A DNA stretch of 49,040 nucleotides from a virus. Below the pieces are notes generated by a model, which saw nothing but the letters and a program-made list of their open reading frames with translations, had not been told where the DNA came from and did not search any database. Positions 2,043-28,532 of the stretch are shown here, piece by piece (the first letter of the stretch is position 1; the number at the start of each line of letters is the position of its first letter). Where the stretch lies: positions 1 through 49,040 of the IMG/VR virus record IMGVR_UViG_3300045931_000114. The stretch is one strand, 5' to 3'. The translations under genes and the position numbers were made by a program.

Positions 2043-4190
2043 ATGGTTCATATCATCATCGACGACATCACCCCCCGCATTGAGTACGCGGTCGGCAGTG
2101 TTGCCACCAGTGAGTTTATCGTTCCGTTCCCCTTTTTCAGCGACGAGGATCTTGTCGTCCAGGTCGACGGTGTCACGCAGAACATCAGCACCTACATCGT
2201 CAAGGGCGCGGGGGATTCCGCAGGCGGGTCGGTCGAGTTCGATACCGCCGTCACCTTCGCCACGATCGTCATCTATCGCGACATCACGATCGAGCGCGTG
2301 ACGGATTTCCCGCCGTCCGGACCGCTGCAGATCGACTCGTTGAATACGGAACTGGATCGCCAGATCGCGATCGACCAGCAGCTCCACCTCGGCATCAGTG
2401 ACGTCAACAGCGAGATTGACGAAGTTCGCGGCCTGCTCGACCTCGACATCGGCGGCACGCTTCATCACTACTCGATCAATGCCCAGGTCGCGGCTGCGAC
2501 CATTGATCCGACCGTGACCTATGTGCAGACGGCGGGTTACGCGGTCCCCGGCGATGGCGGGGCCGGCATATACAGAAAGGTTGGGTTCGAGCCTTCACAC
2601 GGCGGCAAGATCCAGTCCGTCGATGGCGCGTGGTGGGAGCTGGCTGAGCCGGTTCCCAACGTGATGATGTTCGGCGTTGATATGACCGGCGCCACAGACA
2701 GCACGACCGAATTGACCGCGGCGCTCGGATATGCGGCGGCCTGCACGGGCCTTCTCACCGCCCCGTCCGGGGTTGTCCGTCTCGATAGCGAGGTAGATCT
2801 CCCGCACGGCGTTGCACTCCGGGGCGCCGGGATGCCGATGCAGCCGTATCCGGACGCCAGTTATCCGTCCGGAACGACGAACGGAACATGGTTCTTCTTC
2901 AATCACACCGGCATCGGATTCAAGATCGAGAGCGTCGGGACCGTATTCGACATCGACCCCTACAACGAGCTGGTCGGGTTCGGCACATACCGCACGCAGC
3001 CAGCCCCTACCGGCGGCCCGTATACGGCGAACGATCACGACTTCGACATTGCGATTTATTCAAAATACGGAATGAAGATTTCCGACATCATGCTGCTCAA
3101 CGCGACGCGCGGCATTCTTGTCACTGGAATAGCGGCAGCGGAGCGCGGTTCGGGCCGTATCGACATCAGCAGGGTGTACGGCCACATCTTCAAGGTCGGG
3201 ATCAAGCTCGAGTATTGCTATGACATTTGCAGAATAAGCTACATCAATTTCGGGCCGTTCTGGTGCATCCTGGATTCTAACCTTTGGGAATACACCAAGG
3301 ATAATTGCACCGCCCTGACCTTTGGCCGCTGCGACAACCCGCACGTCGACCAGGTCATGGCGTTCGCTGCCAACGCCGTTCTCAAGATTGAGTGGAGCAC
3401 GGCGCTTCACGCCAATCTTCCCGGCGGCACGCTCAACAACGGCGTGTTTGGTGCCGTCCAATTCGACAGCGGCAGGACGGCCTTGCGCGTCGCCGCCGAC
3501 GTGACCGCAGCGTCAATGGTGATCAATCAATTTGTCGCGGCCGGTGAACTGGATGGCACCGACCCGGCGTGCTTCCACATCGAGGGCGACGCCGTCGACA
3601 TCCGGATTGCCGAGCTTCGGTGCGTACAGTCCGGTGTCTTGTTCGGCAGAATTGAGGGCATCGCCAATCGGGTTCGCGTCGCGAATATGGGGGTCTTTGT
3701 CTCCGACACGACAGCAAGCGGTTCCGAGCAATTCATCCTTGATGCAGACAACTACATGCACGTCGACGGTTATCTTTATACCGACGTGCTCGACGACAAA
3801 ATGTTCGGCGGCGACGGCATCGCGAGCGGCAACGTCTGGCGCTCCTACACTCCCACAGCAAGGGCCGGAACCGGGGCGCTTGCGAGCTATACCGCCGAGG
3901 GATCTTACAGGCGGGTGGTTGAGACGGTTGAGGTCAGGTTCGAGATTACGATTACGACCAACGGGACGGGTGCCGGTTATATAGCCTTTGACCTGCCGTT
4001 CATATCCCATTCCAGCGGAACTGCGGGGTACAGCGTTGGCACGCTTCGACAGGTCGCCGGCGGGATGATGGGTTTTGCGTTTGTGCAACCCAACGCCACC
4101 GAGGCAGTCCTGCAGCTCTACAACAATTCGTATCCCGGCGGGAGCGGCGAGATCATAGCCGGCAGTCTGACCTATCGGTGTGCGACATGA
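2043..4190 (+). CDS. Tailspike / tail fibre with probable right-handed beta-helix
   Basis: 715 residues. The first ~120 residues resemble the virion-anchoring domain of podovirus fibres: a 'TPRIEYAVGS..TSEFIVPFPFF' type start and an 'IYRDITIERVTDF' stretch, followed by a short helical region near residues 100-135. The central ~150-520 is Gly/Val/Asp-rich with irregular beta-type repeats, as in pectate-lyase-like beta-helices ('GDGGAGIYRKV', 'LPHGVALRGAGM'). The last ~110 residues (from 'YTPTARAGTG') look like a small beta-sandwich tip. It probably binds and may cleave host surface polysaccharide. I see no catalytic residues I can assign. The start has a GAGGG ribosome binding site, and the 3' end overlaps the next gene by ATGA. 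Confidence 0.82.
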   Translation: MVHIIIDDITPRIEYAVGSVATSEFIVPFPFFSDEDLVVQVDGVTQNISTYIVKGAGDSAGGSVEFDTAVTFATIVIYRDITIERVTDFPPSGPLQIDSLNTELDRQIAIDQQLHLGISDVNSEIDEVRGLLDLDIGGTLHHYSINAQVAAATIDPTVTYVQTAGYAVPGDGGAGIYRKVGFEPSHGGKIQSVDGAWWELAEPVPNVMMFGVDMTGATDSTTELTAALGYAAACTGLLTAPSGVVRLDSEVDLPHGVALRGAGMPMQPYPDASYPSGTTNGTWFFFNHTGIGFKIESVGTVFDIDPYNELVGFGTYRTQPAPTGGPYTANDHDFDIAIYSKYGMKISDIMLLNATRGILVTGIAAAERGSGRIDISRVYGHIFKVGIKLEYCYDICRISYINFGPFWCILDSNLWEYTKDNCTALTFGRCDNPHVDQVMAFAANAVLKIEWSTALHANLPGGTLNNGVFGAVQFDSGRTALRVAADVTAASMVINQFVAAGELDGTDPACFHIEGDAVDIRIAELRCVQSGVLFGRIEGIANRVRVANMGVFVSDTTASGSEQFILDADNYMHVDGYLYTDVLDDKMFGGDGIASGNVWRSYTPTARAGTGALASYTAEGSYRRVVETVEVRFEITITTNGTGAGYIAFDLPFISHSSGTAGYSVGTLRQVAGGMMGFAFVQPNATEAVLQLYNNSYPGGSGEIIAGSLTYRCAT

Positions 4191-8149: not shown

Positions 8150-9115
8150 CTATTGCTCTATTAAGGCTTCTGCTTGGATGATCGCCCGCCCGATGATTTC
8201 CGGGATTTGCGGGACGACGGCGTTGCCGAGCTGCTTAAGGCGGTCCACCCGTCCGGGAACCCCATTAGCCACTCGACCCACCTCGGGTTCAAAAGCCCAA
8301 GGATGACGTTCACACCATGCGATTGAAGGCCACTCCTGCGGTTCGCTGTCGGCGTGGGCCATTTTCCGGTTCTCGCCATCTGGTCTAGTGATGGCCGAAC
8401 CGTCGCCCCCGAGCTCGCTGATTGGTTGCTGCCGTATGTCGTCGCCGTTGGCGTTGGGAAGCGGGCAACTACATCGTTCAATTGCCATCCTCTGGAATCG
8501 GCCAATCTCTTCTGCCAGCCTTCGGCCGATCGGCTCCCACTTCGGTAATCTCTGGCAGTCGCTGACGGCAATCCGTTCCTGATGTCGTTGGCTATCTGCC
8601 CCCGCTTCTCGGCATCGTTCGCTCGCGGAGTTGGCCACAATCCAGAGGCGGTCTCGTCGGTGATGGGCGCCAACGGCGGAAGCTGGTATGCAATGCCACT
8701 CCGCATCAAACCCGAACGCGGCCAGGTCTCCAAGAACGCGGTCCAGCCCTCGACCAAGCAACGCTGCGACGTTCTCCACGACGACGTATCGGGGTCGTAG
8801 TTCGCCAATAATTCTGGCGTAGTCCCGCCATAGGCCGGAACGCTCGCCCTCAATGCCGACACCCTTTCCTGCGAGGCTGATGTCCTGGCATGGGAAGCCC
8901 CCGCAAATAACGTCAACTGGTCCGATGTCGGTGGCTGTGAGTTTGGTAACGTCGTGATGGATCGGGGTGTTTGGCCAGTGTTTGGCGAGGATTTCTCGGC
9001 ACTTGGGGTCAATTTCGCAGAATGCGACGGTTCGCATCCCGGCCCGTTCGAGTCCGAGGCTGAATCCGCCGATTCCGCTGAAGAGGTCGAGGACTTTAAG
9101 GGGCTCATTGGGCAT
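8150..9115 (-). CDS. dcm: DNA (cytosine-5) methyltransferase
   Basis: 321 residues. It methylates cytosine C5 in a specific DNA site, probably to protect phage DNA from host restriction. Motif I is 'LDLFSGIGGFSLG' (from Asp10), motif IV 'GGFPCQDIS' with catalytic Cys76, motif VI 'VVVENVAALL' (Glu114), motif VIII 'HHRRDRLWIV' (~151-160) and motif X 'LGNAVVPQIPEIIGRAI' near the end. The ~160-285 stretch is the variable target-recognition region. I chose the ATG at 9115, 13 bases after the Sak4 stop, because motif I then begins near residue 10. A second long frame covers nearly the whole gene (see 8161-9108). Confidence 0.93.
   Translation of the reverse strand: MPNEPLKVLDLFSGIGGFSLGLERAGMRTVAFCEIDPKCREILAKHWPNTPIHHDVTKLTATDIGPVDVICGGFPCQDISLAGKGVGIEGERSGLWRDYARIIGELRPRYVVVENVAALLGRGLDRVLGDLAAFGFDAEWHCIPASAVGAHHRRDRLWIVANSASERCREAGADSQRHQERIAVSDCQRLPKWEPIGRRLAEEIGRFQRMAIERCSCPLPNANGDDIRQQPISELGGDGSAITRPDGENRKMAHADSEPQEWPSIAWCERHPWAFEPEVGRVANGVPGRVDRLKQLGNAVVPQIPEIIGRAIIQAEALIEQ
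8161..9108 (-). CDS. Second frame inside the methyltransferase gene, conserved phage family motifs
   Basis: A 315-residue frame on the same strand, shifted from the methyltransferase and starting 7 bases after its ATG. It contains segments I recognise from stand-alone phage proteins often found beside cytosine methyltransferases: 'SSWRTSQ', 'ETWPRSGLMRSGIAYQLPPL', 'LWPTPRANDAEKRG' and 'NPRWVEWLMGFPDGWTAL'. That family is usually Trp/Pro-rich as here. Either the locus codes two proteins (overprinting) or the family in databases is partly an out-of-frame image of methyltransferase DNA. The Ser/Arg/Pro bias is what a shifted GC-rich frame gives, so expression is unproven. Confidence 0.4.
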   Translation of the reverse strand: MSPLKSSTSSAESADSASDSNGPGCEPSHSAKLTPSAEKSSPNTGQTPRSITTLPNSQPPTSDQLTLFAGASHARTSASQERVSALRASVPAYGGTTPELLANYDPDTSSWRTSQRCLVEGWTAFLETWPRSGLMRSGIAYQLPPLAPITDETASGLWPTPRANDAEKRGQIANDIRNGLPSATARDYRSGSRSAEGWQKRLADSRGWQLNDVVARFPTPTATTYGSNQSASSGATVRPSLDQMARTGKWPTPTANRRSGLQSHGVNVILGLLNPRWVEWLMGFPDGWTALSSSATPSSRKSRKSSGGRSSKQKP

Positions 9116-9128
9116 CGCTAATTTGGTG

Positions 9129-10166
9129 TTAGTGGTTGCTTGTCTCGTATGCCTCATCCACCTCACGCGCCTGCGGTTTGAACCGGCGATCAAGCGCCGC
9201 CTTGAAATGTTTTTGATCGGCAGGCAGGAGCGTTTTCCATTCCTCTTGCAGCGCCGCCATTCCTTGCTTGGCCGCTTCGATCAGGCCGCGCTCGATCTCG
9301 GCGCGTCGATCAGTGACGCCGACCCCGTCCTGCCGAGGCGTTGCTACAGGAGGGGTCGGCGTTTCGGACGCAGCATGGGGAATTAACCGCGCCGAACTCT
9401 GGCCGCCCTTCGCCCATTGCGCGAGATCGCGGCCGATGTTCTCGTCGAGCGGCTTGCTCTCGGCAAATATACTCTCAAACTGCTTCGGCAATTTCATCAT
9501 CAATCGTTCGCCGATCTGCTCGCTTTGCCAGGTCGGAACGCCGCCGCTCTTGGGCAGCAACAGGATATTGACGGTCTGCTCGTACATGAACTCGTCGCCG
9601 GCGATCGGCATCCATCCCATCTCGACGGGCTGTCCGCCCTTAACCGGCTTGATCTTCTCCTTGGCGCGGAAGCAGGAGATCAGTGAGACGTTCAATTGCA
9701 GGATGCCGTTGATAAGCTGGCGCCGCAGCGAAGCCGGCTTGATCCATCCGGCGATCTTGACGCGCTCGCGTTTGGCGTAGTCGTCGCCGGCCATGCGATC
9801 GACTTCGAGATCGTGGGTCGCGAGATAACCGCCAGGCCCTTCGTGTTCGTGGCTCATGCTGTCCACGATGACAACCTTGGCGCCCTGCTTCACGCATTGC
9901 TGGATCGCGGCCAAATAATCCAAGCTCGAAAACGGCGGATCAAATTGGACATGCTTGAACTTGAATAGGTCGGCGTAGTGCAACGCACGTCGCGCCTCGG
10001 TGTCGATCACATAGATGTCGCCGCCGGTGACGGATTGAATCCCCGTCGCCAGTCGCAATGCGCTGTAAGTCTTGCCGCTGCCGCTCGGCCCCATAAGCCC
10101 GATCAACAGCGGAACGCTCTCGCGCACTGCGGGCTTGGCGTCGAATTGGCGAGCGGCGATGGTCAT
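9129..10166 (-). CDS. Sak4-like single-strand annealing/RecA-fold recombinase (AAA_24)
   Basis: 345 residues. A RecA-type ATPase with Walker A 'GPSGSGKT' (residues 26-33) and Walker B 'AKVVIVDSMS' (Asp102), then 'DDYAKRERVKIAGW' and 'LISCFRAKEKI', all typical of AAA_24/Sak4 phage recombinases. The C-terminal 80 residues are low-complexity then helical, as in other Sak4 proteins that may contact SSB. It would pair DNA ends made by the exonuclease in the same operon. The ATG overlaps the GHKL gene stop by ATGA. Confidence 0.88.
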   Translation of the reverse strand: MTIAARQFDAKPAVRESVPLLIGLMGPSGSGKTYSALRLATGIQSVTGGDIYVIDTEARRALHYADLFKFKHVQFDPPFSSLDYLAAIQQCVKQGAKVVIVDSMSHEHEGPGGYLATHDLEVDRMAGDDYAKRERVKIAGWIKPASLRRQLINGILQLNVSLISCFRAKEKIKPVKGGQPVEMGWMPIAGDEFMYEQTVNILLLPKSGGVPTWQSEQIGERLMMKLPKQFESIFAESKPLDENIGRDLAQWAKGGQSSARLIPHAASETPTPPVATPRQDGVGVTDRRAEIERGLIEAAKQGMAALQEEWKTLLPADQKHFKAALDRRFKPQAREVDEAYETSNH

Positions 10167-11539
10167 AGCAATTTTTCGTCCCGTGAGGTCGCAACATTAA
10201 GGGACATCAAGTCAGCGACATGCCGTCCGTATGAGCGCAATAAATCACGTTGAAACTTGCCTTCGACGTACATCATGATTCCAATTAGGCGTAGAGCATC
10301 GGCAGCGTGTTGCTGGTCACGCAATTGTACGAATTTGTCGATGGCTGGATTGTCCGGTGATAAATAAACGCAGTCCGGGCGCCCTGGCTTGTAAAGACCA
10401 ACGCCGTTCTCGTCGTTTTTGCCTTCCAATAGGATTAGCAGTCGGCCCGATTGCGGCTGTTTCGTCTTAGCTGGCCCCTTGCCTAAATCAGCCTTGTCTC
10501 GCTCAACGCGACCGTTCGATTTTTTCTTTTGCTTAGTTTTTGCCGTTACATCTGTTTTTGGTTTGCGGCGATGTGGCCTTGCGGCAGCGATACTTTCTGG
10601 CAATCCCTCGTTAATCAATTCACCAAGCTCTGCGATCTTGGTGTCCAGTGATGCAGAGTTACATTTTTCCAAAATCGGCTCCAGTACCAATTCGAGTGCC
10701 GATTCCAATTCATCGCGTTCGTCCTCGTCGACCAATTGATCCTTGAACTTTCCTAGATGCCAAGGGCCGCTCAACTGTACGCGAGCAAACATCTGACTAA
10801 TGCCACCGTAATCACTGCAACCAATACGGTCTTTAGGCATGATGATGCGATGTTGAAAACCGACGTGAACGCCCCACAGTTTCGATGGCTCAGCTAACAG
10901 GCCACCCCTGATCCGCGCGGTTCGTCCTGCTGTTAGGCTGATGTCACGCTCCACAATGTCGGTCAGTTTTGGATCTTTCAGATATGGCACAGCATGACCG
11001 TTGAGGACGATCTGACGGTGGGCGCTTAGTGCTGGATGGAAACGTAGGGCAAGTTCCTCAAGTAATTTTTCGATGGTGTATTTGGATGCGGTGCGTAGCG
11101 CCGTTAATTCGATTCGTGTGCCGGTTGAGGCGCCCACCACAGTCGGCCGCCAAGTGGGATCATCGGCCTCCCATACACCTCGTCTTAAAACACTGCGCCA
11201 ATTAACGCTGGCTCTAAATGTGCCATCGCGTGACGTAGAATCGACGGTGATAACATCGGCCGCGTTAATAGCTTGGGCTTTGATCCCAATCCCGAACCGT
11301 CCTAATTGCGTACCAGCCATCGCAGCATGTTCGCCAGGACTAAAGAGGGCGGGGATGCGATCTCGCGTGACTCCAATCCCATTATCTTCAAAGATGATGC
11401 GTTGGTCGTTGATTTGGATTGCAATACGTTGCGCGCCGGCGTCAAACGAGTTGTCAACCGCCTCACATAGCAGCGATTGATAATTGACGCGATCACCGCG
11501 AAATGAATAGAGCAACGTCGGCGGCGGATCGAACCTCAT
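10163..11539 (-). CDS. GHKL-fold ATPase (Hsp90/MutL/MORC-like), phage-encoded
   Basis: 458 residues. The ATP-binding Bergerat fold is clear: N box '[13 protein letters not shown]' (Glu26, Asn30, Asp33), G1 'EDNGIGV' (51-57) and G2 '[12 protein letters not shown]' (79-90). A transducer-like middle follows (to ~250), then a basic Lys/Arg linker (~320-370) and a C-terminal helical part. The G2 form is nearest to MORC/HATPase_c_3 proteins rather than histidine kinases. No kinase, gyrase or endonuclease motif is seen. It is ATGA-coupled to both neighbours inside a recombination operon, so a DNA-handling or counter-defence role is likely but not shown. Confidence 0.8.
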
Positions 11540-26720: not shown

Positions 26721-26908
26721 TGCAGCAGCAGCAGGCGGCGGAAGCCTCGCGGCGCGTCGAGGAGGACCGCCAGCGCGCCGAGGACACCCGCCGCCGCGAG
26801 GTGCAGCTCGGCTTGTCGCAGCAGACCGCACGGCGGCGCGGCCTGGGCTTGCGGTCGCTGCTCGGCCTCGACGTCGGCGGGCTGGTGACGCGGCTCGGGT
26901 CTGGCTGA
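26672..26908 (+). CDS. Small Gln/Arg-rich virion or assembly protein
   Basis: 78 residues, GTG start with an AAGGAGA ribosome site. It starts with a Gly run, then a coiled-coil-like stretch (WNQVMQQQQAAEASRRVEED, RQRAEDTRRREVQLGL) and a Gly/Leu-rich end. Genes of this shape are common just before portal genes. A role in connector assembly is possible; not proven. Confidence 0.68.
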   Translation: MGGIFGGGGGTDWNQVMQQQQAAEASRRVEEDRQRAEDTRRREVQLGLSQQTARRRGLGLRSLLGLDVGGLVTRLGSG

Positions 26909-26909
26909 C

Positions 26910-28532
26910 ATGGCTGAATACGGCAGCGCCGGCAACAACGTCGTCAGCCTGCGAAAGCAGGCGCGCGGCGTGATGGGGACGGAGACCGCCGAGGAGCGCG
27001 AGCTGGTGCGGCAGTGCCAGGTCCGGATCCAGCGCGCCGAGACCGACCGCAACCGCCACAAGGGACGGATCTCCGACATCAACAAGTACGCCATGCCGTG
27101 GCGGCACAAGTTCGACGCCAACCAGCCGAGCGGCTCGCAGGACGACGAGATCTTCGACACCACCGCGATGACGGTGCTCGAGGACTTCGCCGCCGACATG
27201 CAGAACACCTTCACGCCGATGAAGTCGAGCTGGGTGGAGAGCAAGCCGGTCAAGAAGCTCGATGCCGGCGACATGGGCATCATCAAGGACGCGCTCAAGC
27301 AGTACGACGACATTTTGTTTTCGGAAATGCGCCGCTCCAATCTCTACCAGGCGCTGCAGGAGGGCTACCACGACCTCGGCGCCGGGACGATGGCGCTCTC
27401 CATCAACGACATCAACATCGCCGAACCGATCCACTGCGAGGCGATCCCGTCGACCGAGCTGCTGCTCGATCGCGGGCTGTACGGCAAGATCGACGGCATG
27501 TGGCGCAAGTGGCCGAAGAAGCGCGGCGAGGAGATCGGCGTGCAGTGGCCGATGGCAAAAGCTCCCCTGCCCGGCAAGCTCGAGGTCGGCGACGTCGACG
27601 AATACGACGTGATCGACGGCGTCTATCGCGACTGGTCGACGCCTGCCGTCGAGCGCTGGTGCTACGTGGTGATGCTCTCGGGACGGCTGGCCCACACCGA
27701 GCACTTCACCGGGCTTGGCTCCAACCAGATGATCGTGGCGCGCTGGCTGCGCGACTCCACCACCGCGTGGGGCGTCGGGCCGACGTATCTCGTGACGCCC
27801 GCGATCAAGACGCTCAACTACCTGCAGGAGAAGGAACTCAACGCGGTCGACCGCGCGGTCGATCCGGTCTGCTCGTATGAGGACGACGGGGTGATGAACC
27901 TCGAACAGGGCGTCGAGCCCGGACTGTGGATTGCCCGCGCGGTCGGTTCCGACGCGCCGCAGGTCATCGAATCGCGCTCGCAGTTCGACGTCTCGTTCGC
28001 CAAGCGCGAGGATCTGGTCCACGAGATCAAGCGCGCGCACTATCAGGACCGTCCGGAACAGACCGGCAAGACGCCGCCGACCGCGACGCAGTGGGCCGAC
28101 GAAGCAGCGGAACGCGCCCGGCGCATGGGCACGCCCGCCACCAACCTCGTGCATGAGCTGCAGTACGCCATCGTGCGGCGCTTCGCCTACCTGCTCAACC
28201 GCCGCGGCGTGCTGCCCAAGATCGAGCTCAACGGCGCCGAGATCGCGCTCGAGCCGGTGTCTCCGCTGTTGCGCGCGCAGGAGCAGGAGGAAGTGGTCCG
28301 CGTCCAGCGCTGGCTTGAAAGCATGGCCGGGATCTACGGGCCGCAGACCGTCTTGGTGATCTCCAAGCCCGCCGAGGTCTCGACCTATCTCGCCGACAAG
28401 CTCGGCGTGCCCGCCTATCTCGCCAACGGCACCGCCGAGATCCAGGCGGCGATGGCGCAGTTCGCGCCGCTGATCCAGCAGACCACGGGCGGCGGCGGCA
28501 TCCCTGCGGAAGCTCCGCAGCCGGTGCCGTGA
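26910..28532 (+). CDS. Portal (head-tail connector) protein, T7-like family
   Basis: 540 residues. It forms the ring at the packaging vertex and the channel for DNA. 'NRHKGRISDINKYAMPWRH', 'DTTAMTVLEDFAADMQNTFT', 'QALQEGYHDLGAGTMALSIN' and 'YLQEKELNAVDRAVDPV' are the usual blocks of podovirus head-tail connecting proteins (PF12236 type). The C-terminus ends in a Gly-rich tail. It lies between terminase and scaffold as in T7- and BPP-1-like phages. Its stop overlaps a GTG of the next gene. Confidence 0.92.
   Translation: MAEYGSAGNNVVSLRKQARGVMGTETAEERELVRQCQVRIQRAETDRNRHKGRISDINKYAMPWRHKFDANQPSGSQDDEIFDTTAMTVLEDFAADMQNTFTPMKSSWVESKPVKKLDAGDMGIIKDALKQYDDILFSEMRRSNLYQALQEGYHDLGAGTMALSINDINIAEPIHCEAIPSTELLLDRGLYGKIDGMWRKWPKKRGEEIGVQWPMAKAPLPGKLEVGDVDEYDVIDGVYRDWSTPAVERWCYVVMLSGRLAHTEHFTGLGSNQMIVARWLRDSTTAWGVGPTYLVTPAIKTLNYLQEKELNAVDRAVDPVCSYEDDGVMNLEQGVEPGLWIARAVGSDAPQVIESRSQFDVSFAKREDLVHEIKRAHYQDRPEQTGKTPPTATQWADEAAERARRMGTPATNLVHELQYAIVRRFAYLLNRRGVLPKIELNGAEIALEPVSPLLRAQEQEEVVRVQRWLESMAGIYGPQTVLVISKPAEVSTYLADKLGVPAYLANGTAEIQAAMAQFAPLIQQTTGGGGIPAEAPQPVP

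Follow-up and report, generated by a model that had tools for sequence, protein, structure and literature searches.

Can one stretch of phage DNA encode, on the same strand and over most of its length, both a DNA methyltransferase and a second protein? Long same-strand overlapping genes are considered rare in bacteria and their phages. The question is raised by a stretch of viral DNA of 49,040 nucleotides (IMG/VR record IMGVR_UViG_3300045931_000114, hereafter the window), in which an m5C methyltransferase gene (alpha) carries a second long open frame (beta) in its +1 frame. The preliminary description of this DNA, made from its letters, proposed either that a gene had been born by overprinting or that a database family is largely a shadow. 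Here, we analyzed the selection on the two frames, the occurrence of beta among viruses and bacteria, and its possible relation to the methyltransferase.

Results

An m5C methyltransferase gene with a nested open frame

The features of the locus are collected in Table 1. Alpha is an m5C DNA methyltransferase, as judged by its match to PF00145 and by the motif IV GGFPCQ, which holds the catalytic cysteine. When scanned as 8150-9118, i.e., with one extra residue, it matched PF00145 with an E value of 7.1e-47 and phrog_363 with 2.7e-84. The Pfam alignment covers alpha residues 7-180 only, and neither motif IX nor motif X is aligned by it. Motifs I, IV, VI, VIII and X, as listed in the preliminary description, are a reading by eye and could all be read again, and no motif IX was recognised by the same kind of reading of the alpha frame. 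The alpha C-terminus, GVPGRVDRLKQLGNAVVP, was also compared with two profiles, each in a single pairwise comparison. The canonical IX-X profile gave 1.3%, aligned at GNAV, and the IX-X end of fused enzymes (see below) gave a weak 60%, partly over the IX segment, so that a motif IX may be present in alpha in diverged form.

Table 1. Features of the nested methyltransferase locus (window positions)
Feature	Position	Strand	Basis or remark
alpha, m5C DNA methyltransferase	8150..9115	(-)	321 aa; motifs I, IV, VI, VIII, X readable
beta, nested +1 reading frame	8161..9108	(-)	315 codons, phrog_1008 family (E 2.6e-30)
candidate alternative beta start, TTG just upstream of the conserved core	8914..8916	(-)	sequence
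dual-coding core, alpha codons 71-290	8246..8905	(-)	4 +1 stops in 12,977 window-aligned codons, 78 genes
alpha motif IV GGFPCQ	8885..8902	(-)	sequence
alpha motif VI ENV	8768..8776	(-)	sequence
alpha motif VIII region HHRRDRLWIVA	8633..8665	(-)	LWPTP of the beta frame spans its end
beta LNPRWVEWLMGFPDGWT, proposed methyltransferase motif IX	8242..8292	(-)	profile comparison and fourfold third-base identity (0.905 vs 0.279 expected, alpha codons 271-292)
alpha motif X GNAVVP	8210..8227	(-)	sequence

The ATG of beta, at 9108, lies 7 bases past the alpha ATG, exactly where it had been placed, and its TAA ends at 8161. The strings WRTSQ, ETWPRSG, LWPTPRAND and WVEWLMGFPDGW, which had been pointed out in this frame, are all present. 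They had been likened to separately annotated phage proteins near methyltransferases, and such a family does exist: phrog_1008, a profile labelled 'DNA methyltransferase', matches residues 37-296 of the window beta and 74 of 74 aligned alternative-frame proteins. By its label this profile should fit the catalytic alpha; it fits the nested beta frame instead. No known domain was found in beta: the Pfam and NCBIfam scans of the window protein gave zero matches, and in a PDB sequence search nothing scored better than E 2.7; Pfam on the 74 aligned betas yielded a single match, to an unrelated family (E 0.037).

The +1 frame is protected by selection

Relatives were fetched from viral loci by alpha similarity alone, and the best 80 of 599 were kept; the window gene and the fetched relatives, once identical proteins had been removed, gave 78 genes. 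Each gene was compared with synonymous shuffles of itself, which leave the alpha protein and the codon usage unchanged. A +1 open stretch of at least 176 codons was found in 80/80 of the alpha-fetched loci. With the window alpha, none of 200 shuffles matched the observed +1 openness of 317 codons (shuffle mean 133, maximum 280). Over the 78 genes, 350 +1 stops were observed vs 602 expected, and 1153 +2 stops vs 1084 expected; the longest +1 open stretch had a median of 250 codons vs 124 expected. In 46 of the 78 genes no shuffle out of 200 reached the observed +1 length, and 71 were at or below 5%, a level that no gene (0/78) attained in the +2 frame.

The preliminary description had held that stop codons interrupting the frame in close relatives would speak against a gene. 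In the core such stops are nearly absent (4 in 12,977), but they are frequent on both sides of it, with 188 in 4,475 aligned codons at alpha codons 1-60 and 133 in 2,200 at alpha codons 291-320. The stop-free +1 region of the relatives is thus only about alpha codons 71-290, and not the whole 315 codons.

The third bases of fourfold-degenerate codons were then analyzed with 63 representatives under 70% identity. Pair agreement in the core was 0.547 (codons 71-165), 0.671 (codons 166-270) and 0.905 (codons 271-292), and in the flanks 0.318 (codons 6-60) and 0.365 (codons 293-315), where 0.274-0.279 was expected. The rate of change at alpha third positions, taken from 31 independent pairs, was 0.255 in the core vs 0.470 outside. 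Amino-acid conservation in the +1 frame exceeded that of the shuffles with z values of 76, 40 and 88.5 in three core regions; the +2 frame gave 45, 17 and 38 in the same regions, and outside the core a small excess (z 5 to 9) was seen in either frame. As the +2 excess and these small excesses show, conservation of the bases as such contributes to the signal. In the reciprocal test, in which the beta codons were shuffled, the alpha frame gave z values of 140, 16 and 42 in the core regions and the third frame 84, 3 and 22; the absence of alpha stops in this test is there by construction, alpha having been chosen open, and carries no evidential value. Both the alpha and the beta frame are constrained, and the +1 frame is almost certainly a real, selected gene.

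Two further branches carry a protected +1 frame

In GenBank DQ113772 (Streptococcus phage MM1, ORF13/ORF14) a nested +1 ORF is labelled 'C5 methyltransferase beta subunit'. This ORF lies over the same part of alpha as the window beta and is likewise protected from stops. Among 72 genes of the MM1 type, the median +1 open stretch was 164 codons vs 63 expected, and in 62 of them 0/100 shuffles reached the observed length, as happened in the +2 frame with 1/72. With 71 genes, 3 +1 stops were found in 8,449 codons (codons 61-180). In 32 representatives, fourfold identity was 0.40-0.94 at codons 46-180; outside this range it was 0.24-0.42, with 0.29-0.33 expected. In their front halves, the window beta and the MM1 beta align at 98.1% over 108 columns, a figure to which alpha's own conservation may contribute. 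The two types differ at the other end: a motif IX is present in the MM1 alpha itself, and the MM1 beta, of about 140 aa, ends in CSLSDILE..FLS and has neither WPTP repeats nor motif IX. Hence, supplying motif IX cannot be the general role of beta, and the front half of the MM1 beta must have another role.

A third type was fetched with an E. coli prophage methyltransferase. In its 74 genes the median +1 stretch was 312 codons vs 130, 0/100 shuffles reached the observed length in 62/74 (+2 frame, 0/74), and 2 +1 stops were found in 17,760 codons (codons 41-300). The fourfold measure says less for this type, since only 10 representatives are under 80% identity and its values are high (0.40-0.65) beyond the core as well. 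Control ORFs, 150 in number and taken from window-type and MM1-type loci, reached 0/100 shuffles in 5 cases (+1) and 4 cases (+2).

Individual loci added further observations. The methyltransferase gene of phage SpSL1 (KM882824), at 26827-27909, holds an intact, unannotated MM1-type beta of 165 codons (profile E 2.4e-82; 0/300 shuffles). The third branch consists of a second E. coli prophage methyltransferase (L556, 556-1539) and its viral relatives (L557-L636), whose protected +1 frame spans about 300 codons and contains WPTP and LNPAHSRWLMGLP. In OfUltron (L321, 2450-3206) the gene is frameshifted relative to SG4, neither frame being whole, and it is annotated as two DNA methylase genes. An E. 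coli prophage copy (L555, 3500-4261) annotated as a pseudogene because of an internal stop has both frames interrupted.

Beta occurs together with alpha

Loci were also fetched with beta itself, 149 from viruses and 80 from bacterial genomes, each scan keeping the best 80 of several hundred relatives, near-duplicates included. In 229/229 of them beta overlaps an alpha, in the +1 frame, and the same overlap was found in 80/80 loci fetched by the MM1-type beta (best 80 kept). No stand-alone beta gene was seen among these 229 and 80 loci, the best 80 per scan, a selection by which distant stand-alone relatives could be missed. Overlap of all homologues with methyltransferases, together with a lack of purifying selection, had been named as the mark of a shadow. 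The overlap was general among the fetched loci, but the constraint on beta is strong. Beta is neither a shadow nor, as far as seen in the loci checked, a stand-alone family.

When genomes were searched with the phrog_1008 profile, matches were found in 27/398 genomes of the phylum of the Acinetobacter seed and 4/299 of the phylum of the Paenibacillus seed (the seed counted in both), and in 0/14 control genomes. These searches gave 36 genome loci, including fragments of the same gene. An overlap with alpha in +1 was seen in 32, two on a single contig (G612) have a beta match beyond a broken alpha, and two are weak, beta not being detected there by its own profile. Beta was also present on plasmids (6 records) and, by DNA similarity to one Pseudomonas relative, in 4/5426 E. 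coli genomes, and the beta-fetched bacterial loci occur in genomes named from many bacterial phyla. Annotation of the nested pair is inconsistent among the records opened: the records of Jacopo and MM1 list both frames, those of C72C1, SG4 and SpSL1 list alpha alone, and that of Rctr197k lists the beta frame alone.

Translation start of beta

A usable +1 ATG within alpha codons 41-72 was present in 66/78 genes (35.9 expected; at most 46 in 100 shuffles), and one with a Shine-Dalgarno match of at least 4 bases in 32/78 (6.6 expected; at most 16). For MM1-type genes the corresponding values were 67/70 (46.4 expected) and 62/70 (18.1 expected). This enrichment of start signals in the relatives favours a separate initiation of beta. 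In the window, the sole ATG before the core is the one at 9108, and TTG codons are found at 9012 and 8916. By eye, no Shine-Dalgarno site was seen at these beta start candidates or before alpha. The alpha start lies 13 bases past the stop of the upstream gene (window 9096-9130), and this short gap, together with the lack of such a site, makes coupled re-initiation (translational coupling) at alpha plausible; beta could possibly be initiated at the ATG beside the alpha start.

Motif IX and the nested, split and fused arrangements

The window beta terminates in the motif-IX-like stretch NPRWVEWLMGFPDGWT, and the consensus of the beta alignment ends in LNPtWVEWLMGFP.GWTdL. With hhalign, each percentage again being a single pairwise comparison, the beta C-terminus matched the in-frame motif IX of fused mycobacteriophage enzymes with 96.7% (E 3.7e-10, 20 columns), or 97.0% with cropped profiles. 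The match to the canonical motif IX, LTPRECWRLQGFPDWAF, was weak (57%), and beta against the full canonical alpha alignment gave no match (0.1%). A motif-X-like GN[GAS]V is absent from the window beta frame. The motif-IX-like end of beta points to a methyltransferase subunit rather than to an unrelated protein.

Twenty phage loci were then read, picked non-randomly among the matches of beta and those matches of alpha whose annotation was of interest. Eight have the same nested arrangement as the window (Mwe-JY08, Jacopo, Mel-JY01, Rctr197k, C72C1, SG4, ABMM1 and R9.1). Seven are split (phiBT1, RemusLoopin, Rebeuca, Dylan, Gmala1, Float294 and Wilbur): alpha ends behind motif VIII, and LPTP repeats, a motif IX resembling EWMMG and a motif X resembling GNGV are found in the +1 frame. 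In two, DLane and PFR1, the gene is fused, with LPTP repeats, IX and X all in the alpha frame. The remaining three were ReT1v-2, which is intermediate, one locus of the MM1 type, and the frameshifted OfUltron. Of 27 DLane-like viral loci, 20 have IX and X in the alpha frame, 3 have them in +1 and 4, as tested, in neither. Fused-type genes (L324, L329 and 20 among L410-L436) retain a residual +1 stretch of 102-199 codons; in the 12 of these 20 that were tested, this leftover frame was equalled in length by between 4 and 150 of 200 shuffles, and gene by gene it was not significant at the level seen in the other types.

The AlphaFold prediction of beta alone was uninformative (pLDDT 58, pTM 0.27). 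The model predicted for a relative with a natural fusion (pLDDT 61, pTM 0.60) has a confident catalytic core, and its best PDB match was M.HhaI (Z 21.6, rmsd 4.6, 231 aligned). Residues 161-279 and 297-316 of this model are below pLDDT 50, and the motif IX region is at about 51-78, i.e., the recognition region is predicted to be disordered and the IX-X end is modelled with moderate confidence. The WPTP repeats were not shown to be the TRD by this model.

Discussion

The reading that we favour, with a probability of about 0.68, is that the window DNA encodes the motif-IX-bearing beta subunit of a two-polypeptide m5C methyltransferase resembling M.EcoHK31I. Alpha would contribute the cofactor-binding and catalytic motifs I-VIII, plus motif X; beta, translated from its own start in the +1 frame of the same message, would supply motif IX with its C-terminus, and its WPTP repeats would perhaps form part of the target-recognition region. 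Beta is proposed to associate with alpha and to complete the DNA-binding small domain, so that the two together would methylate phage or prophage DNA and might protect it from restriction. We infer that beta is translated in the window phage and is required for activity. This proposal is consistent with the constraint on both frames, with the position of beta over alpha, in +1, in every beta-selected locus checked, with the enrichment of internal starts and with the resemblance of the beta C-terminus to a single-chain motif IX. Against it stand the MM1 branch, the 60% alignment of the alpha C-terminus with an IX-X end, the pLDDT of beta (58), its 57% match to the canonical motif IX, the placing of the M.EcoHK31I TRD in the large subunit, and the fact that no Shine-Dalgarno site was seen in the window.

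Alternatively, beta could be a nested gene without a subunit role, such as an independent regulator or an anti-restriction or host-takeover protein overprinted on alpha. In the MM1 branch, where alpha is canonical and beta is without motif IX, the +1 frame is still under protection (62/72) and contains internal start signals. A shared non-catalytic role is possible, since the two betas align in their front halves, and alpha may carry a diverged motif IX. We nevertheless consider such a role unlikely, given the motif-IX-like C-terminus of beta, the existence of split and fused versions with the methyltransferase, the constant company of alpha in the loci checked, and the deposited annotation of DQ113772 as a beta subunit. 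A far less probable alternative is programmed +1 frameshifting from alpha into the beta tail, which would give a second, fused enzyme and no separate protein. It would recall the split relatives (phiBT1, Rebeuca, Wilbur and others), where alpha ends after motif VIII and the rest lies in +1, but an internal ATG with a Shine-Dalgarno site is enriched, very strongly so in the MM1 type (62/70 vs 18.1 expected), the constraint extends over the front half of beta, and, since the window beta frame has no GN[GAS]V, the shifted product would be without motif X.

Of the two readings offered by the preliminary description, that of an additional, selected gene stood up to the shuffles, the stop counts and the third bases, and that of a shadow did not. 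Every fetched homologue overlaps alpha, and conserved alpha residues force some similarity in +1; an open frame arising merely from alpha's amino acids, codon usage and GC content is nonetheless highly improbable, because shuffles that keep the first two fail to reproduce it in all three types, the control ORFs were positive in so few cases (5 and 4 of 150), relatives of 38-49% GC have the open frame as well, and internal start signals are commoner in the relatives than in shuffles. An RNA or DNA element, and not a protein, as the source of the third-base conservation has just as slim a chance: the excess conservation of the +2 frame in the core (z 45, 17, 38) would suit it, but stops are depleted in +1 only (350 vs 602, against 1153 vs 1084 in +2), and substitution scores in the core are higher in +1 than in +2.

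A biochemical precedent gives the proposed subunit a testable role. The small subunit of M.EcoHK31I is reportedly encoded in another frame inside the large-subunit gene, and is said to comprise 176 codons. The window beta shares with it an IX-like end and the nested position in another frame (229/229 beta-selected loci), a likeness of architecture and not of compared sequences; the window pair is phage-borne, and its beta has up to 315 codons against the reported 176. According to PMC3404938, the larger subunit of M.EcoHK31I has motifs I-VIII, X and a predicted TRD, and the smaller polypeptide motif IX only. The large-subunit pattern, I-VIII plus X, may recur in alpha, with motif X read by eye and IX-X matches of 1.3% (canonical) and 60% (fused), and the location of the predicted TRD in the large subunit is a point of difference. 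In M.AquI, as the same source describes it, the motifs are divided between two polypeptides, in which it resembles the split phiBT1, Rebeuca and Wilbur genes, but its small subunit has both IX and X, and the window alpha keeps X. In ShiLan, a hidden ORF likewise lies in another frame of a phage methylase, but PMC11855218 presents it as an HNH endonuclease domain in a mobile insertion; the window beta overlaps conserved catalytic motifs and matches no Pfam HNH family.

Nested pairs of this kind are known from few cases, and a family-wide nested gene in methyltransferases was not found described in the literature searched, which left most subscription journals outside. The breadth of the phenomenon and its motif-IX-free branch are the surprising part, with roughly 130-260 protected codons and a selection that can be demonstrated in three sets of viral loci. 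We would give even odds to a broader proposal, namely that the nested beta is ancient and generally accompanies the m5C methyltransferases of a large clade found in phages and prophages, of which three branches were observed, that its front half has a function independent of motif IX, and that changes of frame shift the recognition and IX(-X) module between the nested, split and fused arrangements. If so, few long genes of bacteria and their phages that code twice on the same strand would be as widespread. Phage methyltransferases studied without the beta frame may have been half enzymes; one example would be that of SpSL1, whose m5C methylation was measured (PMC6755750).

The scan of 10 window ORFs turned up no restriction enzyme. 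Two other ORFs of the window could be described further. The ORF at 10163-11539(-), of 458 aa, has motifs that were read as those of a GHKL-type ATPase, and its sole profile match is phrog_6203, of unknown function. The ORF at 2043-4190(+) encodes a tail-fibre-like protein with a pectin-lyase-like profile match, phrog_32881.
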